NCBI GenBank assembly: GCA_019310975.1
Contig: JAFDDH010000068.1
Coordinates: 1 to 32,614 of the forward strand
Source of the DNA: Deltaproteobacteria bacterium
GTDB taxonomy: Bacteria > Myxococcota_A > UBA9160 > UBA4427
Reading direction: 5' to 3'
Length of the DNA stretch: 32,614 nt
The position numbers and the translations under genes are program-made. Below the pieces are notes generated by a model that saw only the letters and a list, made by a program, of their open reading frames with translations, was not told where the DNA came from and searched no databases. Below are positions 22,724-25,173 of the stretch, piece by piece. Numbering within the stretch: position 1 is the stretch's first letter; every line of letters begins with the position of its first letter.

Positions 22724-22957
22724 TCGCCCGGTCCGGAGTGGCGCTGCGATGCGGCGAGGTCGGGTTCATCGTCGAGCGACTGCGCGTGTGCTCGCTCGCG
22801 GGTCATCGGATGCACGCGGCAAGTCAACCTCCGATCCAGAGAGACGTCAAGCGCGGACGGTCGCGCACGAGGGGGTCCCGTTGCAGGCGATCACGCGGTC
22901 GGGCGGAGGCGTGTCGGTGTTTCGATCACAGATTCTTTCCGGTCGCCGAACGTGGGG

Positions 22958-22963
22958 TACCCT
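22958..22963 (+). promoter_or_regulatory. Candidate -10 element (leaderless) of the srkA-like gene
   Basis: TACCCT (TANNNT) lies 7 nt before the ATG at 22971; only a weak GTGGGG precedes it and there is no Shine-Dalgarno sequence in the usual place. Same spacing as at 2488, 24649 and 31134. The remaining 22724-22957 between the divergent genes shows no other obvious signal. Confidence 0.3.
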
Positions 22964-22970
22964 GCCGGCG

Positions 22971-24029
22971 ATGGACGAGTCCGAGTTCTTCTTCCGTCTC
23001 TCCCCGGATCGCGTCCTGCAGGCCGTGGAAGCCGGGGGACTCTCGCCGAGCGGACACTGCTTCACCCTCAACGCCCTGGAGAACCGCGTCTACGACGTTC
23101 GCTTGGAGGACGGCCGGCACGTCGTGGCGAAGTTCTACCGGCCCGGCCGCTGGAGCCGCGAAGCGATCCTGGAGGAGCACGGCCTGCTCGCCCTGCTCGC
23201 CGAGATGGAGATCCCCGTGGCCGTGCCGCTGGCCTTCGAAGACGGCGAGACGCTGCATCGCGTCGAGGGCATCCACTATGCGGTCTGGCCGCGCACCGGT
23301 GGGCGCTCACCCGACGAGCTCGACGACGGGCAGGTCGCGGTGCTCGGCCGGCTGCTGGCCCGCATCCACAGCGCCGCCCAGGCCGCATCGATCGAACGGC
23401 GACCCGCCCTCGACTCGGAGCACTTCCCGCTCGCAGCCCTGACGTTGCTGGAGGAGCGCGGCTTCCTGCCGCCATCCTGCGCGAATCGCTACCGCGCTGC
23501 CGTCGAGGAGCTGGTTGCGATCTACGACGATTGGAGCCGCGATGTGGCCCTGCATCCGATCCACGGCGACTGCCATCGCGGCAACCTGCTGCTGGGCGAC
23601 GCGGGCTGGCTCTTCCTCGACTTCGACGACGTGGTGATCGGGCCCGCCGTGCAGGATGTGTGGATGCTCTTGCCGGGACGGGACGCCGAGGCGGCCCGGC
23701 AGCGCGCGCTGCTGGTGGAGGCCTACCGCGAGTTTCGCGACTTCGACGAGCGCTCGCTGCGCTTGATCGAGCCGCTGCGCGCCTTCCGCTTCGTGTGGTA
23801 TGCGGGCTGGATCGCGCGGCGCTGGGATGACCCCGCCTTCCCCGACGCATTTCCGCACTTTGGTGGCGACGAATACTGGGAGAACGAGACGCGCGACCTC
23901 GAGCAGCAGGTCGAGTTGATCGTACGCGGCGAGGGCGCCTCGGTGCCGGCGCCGGACGCACAGGCCCGCAGCGAGGAGCGGGAGGCCCAGGGCGAGCTGA
24001 CGAACGAAGACTTCTTCTGGGATCTCTGA
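22971..24029 (+). CDS. srkA: SrkA/RdoA-family stress kinase
   Basis: A 352-residue kinase of the aminoglycoside-phosphotransferase fold, related to E. coli SrkA (YihE/RdoA). Visible motifs: ALENRVYDVRLEDGRHVVAKFYRPGRW (family nucleotide-binding Lys), IHGDCHRGNLL (catalytic loop, HGDxHxxN) and FLDFDDVVIGPAVQDVWML (DFD metal site plus DxWxL). RFVWYAGWIARRW is also typical. E. coli SrkA phosphorylates Ser/Thr and counters stress-induced toxin death. This protein is about 24 residues longer, with an acidic C-terminal tail. The start ATG 22971 lacks a Shine-Dalgarno sequence. The stop lies inside a 13-bp hairpin. Confidence 0.9.
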   Translation: MDESEFFFRLSPDRVLQAVEAGGLSPSGHCFTLNALENRVYDVRLEDGRHVVAKFYRPGRWSREAILEEHGLLALLAEMEIPVAVPLAFEDGETLHRVEGIHYAVWPRTGGRSPDELDDGQVAVLGRLLARIHSAAQAASIERRPALDSEHFPLAALTLLEERGFLPPSCANRYRAAVEELVAIYDDWSRDVALHPIHGDCHRGNLLLGDAGWLFLDFDDVVIGPAVQDVWMLLPGRDAEAARQRALLVEAYREFRDFDERSLRLIEPLRAFRFVWYAGWIARRWDDPAFPDAFPHFGGDEYWENETRDLEQQVELIVRGEGASVPAPDAQARSEEREAQGELTNEDFFWDL

Positions 24030-24047
24030 GCAGAGCTCAGAGATCCC
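24019..24047 (+). terminator. 13-bp hairpin containing the srkA stop codon
   Basis: GGGATCTCTGAGC (24019-24031) pairs perfectly with GCTCAGAGATCCC (24035-24047), with a 3-nt loop. The TGA stop (24027-24029) is inside the left arm, so a terminating ribosome would melt it. TT follows on the plus strand but no longer T-tract. Bidirectional terminator or RNA 3'-end structure is likely. Confidence 0.6.
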
Positions 24048-24050
24048 TTG

Positions 24051-24168
24051 GCGGAGGGCTCCCTTACGTAGCTGAGGGCTCCACGTAGCTGAGGGCTCCC
24101 CTACCTCGCTGAGGGCTCCCCTACCTCGCCGAGGGCTCCCCAATTCTGGCTGAGGCCTCCTGCTTCCG
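24051..24168. repeat. 20-bp imperfect tandem repeat between convergent genes
   Basis: Six units of GCTGAGGGCTCCCCTACCTC or close variants: 24051-24070, 24071-24087, 24088-24107, 24108-24127, 24128-24148 and 24149-24168. Units 3 and 4 are identical; the outer ones have drifted. The array starts right after the srkA hairpin and ends 2 nt before the next gene's stop. No spacers, so it is not CRISPR. Confidence 0.85.
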
Positions 24169-24170
24169 AC

Positions 24171-24452
24171 CTACGCCGCGGCCTCGTCGTCTCGGCGGTC
24201 GACCCGCTGGTCCAAGAGCTCGCTGGCGAGCTTCGTGACACTGTGATTCACGGCGCGGATCAGGTCGTAGATGGCGCCGATCGACGTGTCCTGGATCCGA
24301 CGCACTTCCGACACGGTCTGCTCGAAGAGGCCGAGCTGCTCGAGCACCGTGATCGGCAGGTTGGCCACTTGGCGGTGAATCTCCTCAACGGTCGTCGCGC
24401 CCTGGTCGACGGCCTCCTCGACCAGCTCGCTCAAGCCTCTCTGGTTGCTCAT
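24171..24452 (-). CDS. 93-residue helical protein, unknown function
   Basis: A 93-residue protein with GGAGGA 6 nt before ATG 24452. It reads as amphipathic helices with few aromatic residues: GLSELVEEAVDQGATTVEEIHRQVANLP, then VLEQLGLFEQTVSEVRRIQDTSIGAIYDLIRAVNHSVTKLASELL, and a charged tail. No cysteine, signal peptide or membrane segment is visible. A coiled-coil or granule- or protein-associated role is conceivable but unproven. It faces away from a ribbon-helix-helix gene, with a perfect palindrome 31 nt upstream of its start, so it is probably repressed or induced by a dedicated regulator. I recognise no family. Confidence 0.75.
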   Translation of the reverse strand: MSNQRGLSELVEEAVDQGATTVEEIHRQVANLPITVLEQLGLFEQTVSEVRRIQDTSIGAIYDLIRAVNHSVTKLASELLDQRVDRRDDEAAA

Positions 24453-24482
24453 GACGTCTCCTCCGCTTTGAGATGGTCTGCA

Positions 24483-24509
24483 TTGATGTAATACGTACTA
24501 TTACATCAA
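24483..24509. promoter_or_regulatory. Perfect 11-bp inverted repeat, likely operator
   Basis: TTGATGTAATA (24483-24493) and TATTACATCAA (24499-24509) are exact complements, 5 nt apart, in an AT-rich island of an otherwise GC-rich genome. A minus-strand promoter fits over it: TTGCGC (24516-24511) with 17 nt to TATTAC (24493-24488). The palindrome therefore covers the spacer and -10 of the 93-residue gene, a classic repressor position. The ribbon-helix-helix protein at 24649 is the natural candidate, though TetR-type regulators bind similar sites. Confidence 0.7.
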
Positions 24510-24551
24510 AGCGCAATGGGTGAGCCATTCCATTTCCCACATACTTGAGAA

Positions 24552-24563: not shown

Positions 24564-24635
24564 ACAGGAAGTTATGTGACTTTCTCGAACCAGGGCAGGG
24601 CTCCCGCCGGGCCTAGCGGCCTTTCTCGGGCGTAG

Positions 24636-24641
24636 TACAAT
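24636..24641 (+). promoter_or_regulatory. Candidate -10 element (leaderless) of the RHH gene
   Basis: TACAAT (five of six consensus) is followed by 7 nt and ATG 24649. An earlier in-frame ATG (24640) overlaps the hexamer. No Shine-Dalgarno sequence exists before either ATG. Confidence 0.4.
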
Positions 24642-24648
24642 GTCTCTC

Positions 24649-25173
24649 ATGGTCAAGCGCACTGACGCGACCGAGTCCGCGGTAGGCTGCTCGCGGGCTG
24701 CGCCGCGCAAGGATCGGCTCGTCCAGGCTCGCGTGCCCCGCGAGCTCGAGGCCAGCTTGAAAGAAGAGGCGCGCCGCCGCCGGCTCTCAGTCTCCCACCT
24801 GGTGCGCAACGTGCTGGAGGACGCCCTGAAGCTCGTCGACGGGGTGGTCCACGATGTCGATCGCATCGTGAGCGACTCGGTCCACCTGGCACGCAGCCTT
24901 GGACGCGGCGCCGAGCGCAGTCACGCCGGCCACGACCGCGAAGCATCAGTGGGTGGACGGACGCGTGAAGCGACGCGCGAGGACATGCGGGGAGAGACCG
25001 CTGATGATCTGTCGCACGTCTACGCCTGGAACGAGGTCGTGCTCCACCGACCCGCCGCGTGCTCGTCCTGCGGCCGGGCGCTCGAACGCGGACAGCGCGG
25101 CTACGCGGGGCTCAGTGACGAGCCGGGTGCAGCGCGGGCATGGCTCTGCGAGGGCTGTGTCGCCCGGCTCTGA
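24649..25173 (+). CDS. Ribbon-helix-helix protein with C-terminal zinc-ribbon-like motif
   Basis: A 174-residue protein (177 if ATG 24640 is used). Residues about 20-60 are a ribbon-helix-helix DNA-binding domain: RLVQARVPRELEASLKEEARRRRLSVSHLVRNVLEDAL, with the short beta strand followed by two helices. Residues 60-135 are a charged linker. The C-terminal 45 residues carry two CxxC pairs (CSSCGRALERGQRG ... WLCEGC), a probable zinc ribbon. RHH proteins bind as dimers to palindromic operators, and an 11-bp inverted repeat lies 140 nt upstream, nearest the 93-residue gene. The fusion could add metal or redox sensing; that is inference. I chose ATG 24649 because a TACAAT box ends 7 nt before it. 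Confidence 0.78.
   Translation: MVKRTDATESAVGCSRAAPRKDRLVQARVPRELEASLKEEARRRRLSVSHLVRNVLEDALKLVDGVVHDVDRIVSDSVHLARSLGRGAERSHAGHDREASVGGRTREATREDMRGETADDLSHVYAWNEVVLHRPAACSSCGRALERGQRGYAGLSDEPGAARAWLCEGCVARL

Follow-up and report, generated by a model that had tools for sequence, protein, structure and literature searches.

A conserved palindrome in an uncultured myxobacterial relative is a probable operator of a divergently encoded ribbon-helix-helix-like protein

The palindrome and the predicted promoter beneath it

The window, i.e. the whole stretch of DNA that was analyzed (32,614 nucleotides), comes from an uncultured relative of the myxobacteria, whose draft genome comprises 5.35 Mb in 477 contigs and is 90.6% complete. 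The genes and features considered here are the following:

24171-24452, minus strand: gene of 93 codons (the 93-residue gene), encoding a predicted two-helix hairpin
24458-24464, minus strand: likely ribosome-binding site GGAGGAG of the 93-residue gene, judged by sequence
24483-24509, no strand: perfect 11-bp inverted repeat with a 5-nt spacer, TTGATGTAATA-CGTAC-TATTACATCAA
24487-24505, no strand: conserved core TGTAATAC-N3-GTATTACA, one mismatch in the window; predicted operator
24488-24516, minus strand: putative promoter of the 93-residue gene, TTGCGC (24516-24511) N17 TATTAC (24493-24488), with weak hexamers
24631-24641, plus strand: half-site CGTAGTACA, overlapping a -10-like TACAAT (24636-24641), 17-18 nt before the ATG at 24649
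24640 or 24649 to 25173, plus strand: divergent gene for a ribbon-helix-helix (RHH)-like protein with an RHH-like part and a cysteine-bearing C-terminal domain

The palindrome had been reported as a perfect repeat of two 11-bp arms 5 nt apart, and recomputation confirmed it as exact at 24483-24509. Its 22 fixed bases match the window once at up to three mismatches, with no match in 100 shuffles. The scan of the organism's own genome that had been proposed as a check was run with a 20-base version of the palindrome and yielded one place only at up to three mismatches. Arm length by itself is not special, because seven further inverted repeats (arms of at least 10 bp, spacers of up to 12 nt) occur in the window, all with higher G+C content; what sets this palindrome apart is its A+T-rich sequence, together with where it lies and how well it is conserved. 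The conserved operator core measures 19 bp, with 8-bp arms spaced 11 bp apart, and homologous loci mostly do not keep the outer TTGA/TCAA bases. Since the repeat is able to fold back on itself, we considered an RNA hairpin or a terminator, a reading that we regard as most improbable: the stem is A+T-rich, lies within a promoter and lacks a T tract, and we found neither a terminator-like match nor an Rfam match up to E 0.1. Moreover, homologues keep the bases themselves, with five right-arm positions invariant in 14/14 loci.

The palindrome precedes the ATG of the 93-residue gene by 30 bp, and the promoter that had been claimed to underlie it, TTGCGC-N17-TATTAC, is present on the minus strand. 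Its hexamers match those of sigma-70 at 7/12 positions, and a consensus promoter scan did not pick it up. When homologous loci were aligned on the site, a TTG was found at the -35 distance before TATTAC in 9/13 (own locus included) and was absent there in the other four, compared with at most 2/13 loci at any other single offset. The -10 element falls within the operator and its conservation is thus not independent of operator conservation; the recurring TTG supports the promoter independently of the -10 element.

The two divergent genes

The model of the 93-residue protein is a two-helix hairpin (mean pLDDT 87). Pfam and NCBIfam gave no convincing match for this protein, and a fold search with the hairpin returned nothing below E 1.6; PDB sequence searches with both the 93-residue and the RHH family gave poor matches only. 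Homologues of the 93-residue protein were found in 13 of the 60 genomes searched (own included), at 16 loci. At nine of these, own included, an RHH homologue adjoins the gene, either divergently or on the same strand just downstream; at the remaining seven, three of which come from one genome, the retrieved stretch contains no RHH gene. The gene following the 93-residue gene at L051, L052, L056 and L065 resembles, by eye, the alpha/beta hydrolases of L035 and L059. A role of the helical hairpin as a polyhydroxyalkanoate phasin was dropped, because the own genome (90.6% complete) has no match to a polyhydroxyalkanoate synthase, as searched for with PhaC_N.

The divergent neighbor, which had not been noticed as the likely regulator in the original prediction, is a probable RHH protein. 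Its more likely start is the ATG at 24649 (174 residues) rather than that at 24640 (177 residues). It scores 18.4 bits against Pfam RHH_1, below the curated cut-off of 20.5, and we therefore term it RHH-like by sequence. Several RHH families match the 41 family members weakly, the best E-values being 0.00023 (RHH_5) and 0.00055 (RHH_1). A sequence search of the PDB returned no RHH entry, and there was none among the best 50 of 151 matches in a fold search. The AlphaFold model of the monomer contains helices at residues 34-46 and 51-97 and no strand; in RHH proteins the strands pair within the dimer. In the presumed reading strand R31 is invariant (41/41), and Q29 is replaced by His in one clade. 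The C-terminal domain bears the conserved cysteines C141, C144 and C170 and weakly resembles zf-PARP zinc fingers (best Foldseek E-value 0.034 among the matches listed). The protein is predicted to work like an RHH regulator.

RHH homologues were detected at E 1e-10 in 42 of the 79 genomes of the order. A search of named genomes with the RHH alignment gave 23 loci, all in genomes titled as metagenome-assembled or uncultured, mostly Deltaproteobacteria or Myxococcota and one Candidatus Binatia; the 93-residue protein alone, used as query against the contigs of named genomes, found no relative. A search of phage records for relatives of the RHH protein found none at E 1e-5.

The site accompanies the RHH gene

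The site of the first type, site A (TGTAATACNNNGTATTACA), was found at up to three mismatches within 450 bp upstream in 9/9 loci (own included) at which the 93-residue gene has an RHH neighbor, and in 0/7 loci without one, all of which show at least seven mismatches. This footprint of the orthologues supports the proposal that a regulator binds over the 93-residue gene's promoter; the expected conservation upstream of these orthologues holds beside an RHH gene and fails where the RHH gene is missing.

We then sought the site within 450 bp upstream at 30 RHH loci (own included, duplicate contigs removed). It was present at up to four mismatches in 29/30, compared with 0/243 control windows of equal length taken elsewhere in these loci and with 0.2% of dinucleotide shuffles; the only locus exceeding four mismatches is L071. 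At L004, one of the nine 93-residue loci with an RHH neighbor, the best-scoring site lies further upstream and another, with three mismatches, covers the promoter; the promoter-covering site was met in the same contig, as retrieved for L026 and L051. Across the 79 genomes of the order the pattern, which is partly defined on loci that it is scored on, including some of those counted here, occurs at up to two mismatches at 17 places in 16 genomes, compared with one for the reversed control. Fifteen of the 17 are next to an RHH gene belonging to the family, in some cases separated from it by the 93-residue gene, and two of these fifteen are near-identical copies in one draft genome (G061). The other two lie beside an alpha/beta hydrolase gene (L087) and within a long open frame (L085). 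The former (G076:C16:70072-70090) has one mismatch and no adjoining RHH gene and is a possible distant target of the RHH regulator.

The site also persists where no 93-residue gene is recognized, namely beside genes for an alpha/beta hydrolase (L035, L059), citrate synthase (L033), fatty acid desaturase (L067, L068) and an ABC1 kinase (L072). It is retained whatever the other neighbor is, and hence goes with the RHH gene. The two desaturase genes (L067:1746-2852 and L068:1706-2845) are transcribed away from the RHH gene, and operator-like sites lie where they begin. In the own genome the pattern occurs at three places at up to three mismatches (own site included), the same count as for the reversed control, so that weak matches alone mean little; the two other places were therefore dropped as targets. 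With an asymmetric variant of the site, TGTAATAC-N3-GATGACA, no target turned up in the own genome at up to two mismatches.

These neighborhoods bear on two other explanations. The 93-residue and RHH proteins might form a toxin-antitoxin pair with the palindrome as its autoregulatory operator: RHH antitoxins autoregulate through palindromes, and 20 of the 41 RHH members match CopG_antitoxin in Pfam weakly (E ≤0.05). We consider this very unlikely, because the RHH gene also stands beside metabolic genes with no recognized 93-residue gene, the seven 93-residue loci described above have no RHH gene in the retrieved stretch, and structural searches matched nothing confidently to the predicted hairpin. 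The stable gene pairing of type II toxin-antitoxin systems is thus not seen; each gene occurs without the other. Alternatively, a regulator encoded elsewhere, for example of the TetR type, could bind the palindrome, with the RHH gene merely belonging to the same regulon. Perfect dyads with short spacers are also typical of helix-turn-helix dimers, and direct binding of the palindrome by the RHH protein is something we infer. Nevertheless, we judge a regulator encoded elsewhere to be improbable, given that 15/17 places adjoin the RHH family with any other neighbor, and two observations described below, namely half-sites that differ with the type of RHH protein and half-sites arranged as direct repeats, argue against it as well.

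Half-site and reading strand vary together

The presumed reading strand is of the RLIQTRV type (Gln) at the 30 loci and reads RVLHTRI (His) in a second clade; judging by alignment with Arc, we take this Gln/His residue to stand at a base-contacting place. We compared site A with a second type, site B (TGTATCACNNNGTGATACA, i.e. TGTATCAC-N3-GTGATACA). Gln-type loci were closer to site A in 29/30 cases, with one tie. In a more distant set of 11 His-type loci, which includes one with just 104 bp upstream (L048), site A was still found at up to four mismatches in 8/11, compared with 0/37 control windows; seven of the 11 were closer to site B and one to site A, two were ties and one was cut by a contig end. 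The Fisher test for the first set gave 8e-7, to be read with the loci's shared ancestry in mind. A fresh set of 20 further loci was chosen by protein only, and the reading strand was read directly. Seventeen were of the His type: 12 were closer to B and one to A, two were ties, and two (L095 and L099) have no site at up to four mismatches. Of the others, L107 encodes an Ala-type homologue and has no site, L100 (strand not read) is closer to site A, and L093 (strand not read) came without upstream DNA. The Fisher test for the fresh set, computed on 2 A/12 B, gave 6e-9; the checked count is 1 A/12 B. Because the His/Gln split coincides with a clade split and the loci share ancestry, the co-variation may reflect one evolutionary change.

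At some loci (L033, L039, L073) the half-sites are arranged as direct repeats 11 bp apart, which suits RHH dimers. The arrangement of the RHH class, two or more half-sites spaced by about 11 bp in an operator close to the gene of the regulator, is found here. We tentatively propose, at slightly less than even confidence, that the proteins form an autoregulatory RHH family with a zinc-finger-like C-terminal domain, widespread in Myxococcota, in which the change from TGTAATAC to TGTATCAC half-sites together with that from Gln to His would be a natural specificity switch. The nature of the neighbors (hairpin protein, lipase-like hydrolases, desaturases and citrate synthase) hints that the family may be connected with lipid and central carbon metabolism. 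Another conserved linkage, seen by eye, is that of His-type RHH paralogues at L040, L041 and L046, which have an HspQ-like small gene and a branched-chain aminotransferase-like gene nearby, upstream of the RHH gene.

A half-site before the RHH gene and the proposed regulation

A half-site (GTAGTACA in the window) also lies 17-18 nt before the RHH start in the window and at L051, L052, L053, L054, L059 and L065. It has one or two mismatches, is the best at that distance and is clear in at most 7/13 loci examined; at L054 shuffles score as well. In most of the seven it overlaps a TACAAT-like -10 element. This arrangement suggests that the RHH transcript may be leaderless and that the half-site could be a weaker second control point, for the RHH gene itself. 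Autoregulation of the RHH gene is the least certain part of our reading.

Taken as a whole, it is highly probable that the palindrome is the operator of the divergent RHH protein, dimers of which would cover the spacer and the -10 element and repress the 93-residue gene and perhaps their own. Comparison between loci shows that the site and the spacing within the promoter are conserved, that the site is linked to the RHH gene and that half-site and presumed reading strand vary together; for direct binding and its stoichiometry, for repression as opposed to activation, for autorepression and for the signal we suggest the following model. Each half-site would be occupied by one RHH dimer, so that two dimers would sit 11 bp apart on the same side of the DNA. 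Together they would lie over the spacer and the minus-strand -10 element and keep RNA polymerase away, and the 93-residue gene would be repressed. If dimers also bound the half-site over the RHH gene's own -10 element, in a promoter that is probably leaderless, the RHH protein might repress its own gene. To be lifted, repression would require a signal that the cysteine-bearing C-terminal domain senses, a partner that binds this domain, or the 93-residue protein.

Relation to known systems and other features of the window

CopG/Arc-type RHH autorepressors are small proteins in which two helices follow a short reading strand. The predicted system resembles them in its presumed reading strand and two predicted helices, in half-sites about one helical turn apart and in a site over a promoter adjoining the regulator's gene. 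It differs in that the protein has an extra cysteine-bearing C-terminal domain and scores below the Pfam cut-off, and in that its family is linked to the 93-residue hairpin or to metabolic genes instead of the plasmid or phage genes of CopG/Arc. NikR and AmrZ are RHH regulators with extra domains; the protein of the window likewise carries a further domain after the RHH part, in its case a weakly zf-PARP-like one. According to a study of CdbA (PMC7156744), CdbA of Myxococcus xanthus is an RHH DNA-binding protein with two DNA-binding regions one helical turn apart, and a nucleoid protein that binds c-di-GMP and has >500 sites with a G+C-rich direct-repeat consensus. As described there, this myxobacterial protein is similar in its binding regions, whereas the genome of the window has one A+T-rich site, beside the regulator's own gene.

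A literature search on RHH regulators and operators did not find this RHH family described. The predicted element is of an ordinary kind and well supported by comparison, and its regulator family is undescribed in the literature searched. What was an unexplained palindrome is now a predicted pair of regulator and operator that makes a precise prediction, and searches for targets in other Myxococcota can make use of the site. If the Gln/His residue sets the half-site, the family would offer a clean natural case of a beta-sheet DNA reader changing its target.

Two further repeats were noted in the window. At 24019-24047 a perfect 13-bp inverted repeat with a 3-nt loop spans the stop codon of an APH-kinase-like gene (22749-24029, plus strand); a terminator scan made no call for it. 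Between the convergent ends of this gene and the 93-residue gene (24171-24452, minus strand), positions 24051-24139 hold four degenerate tandem copies of a unit of ∼20 bp (GCTGAGGGCTCCCCTACCTC-like).
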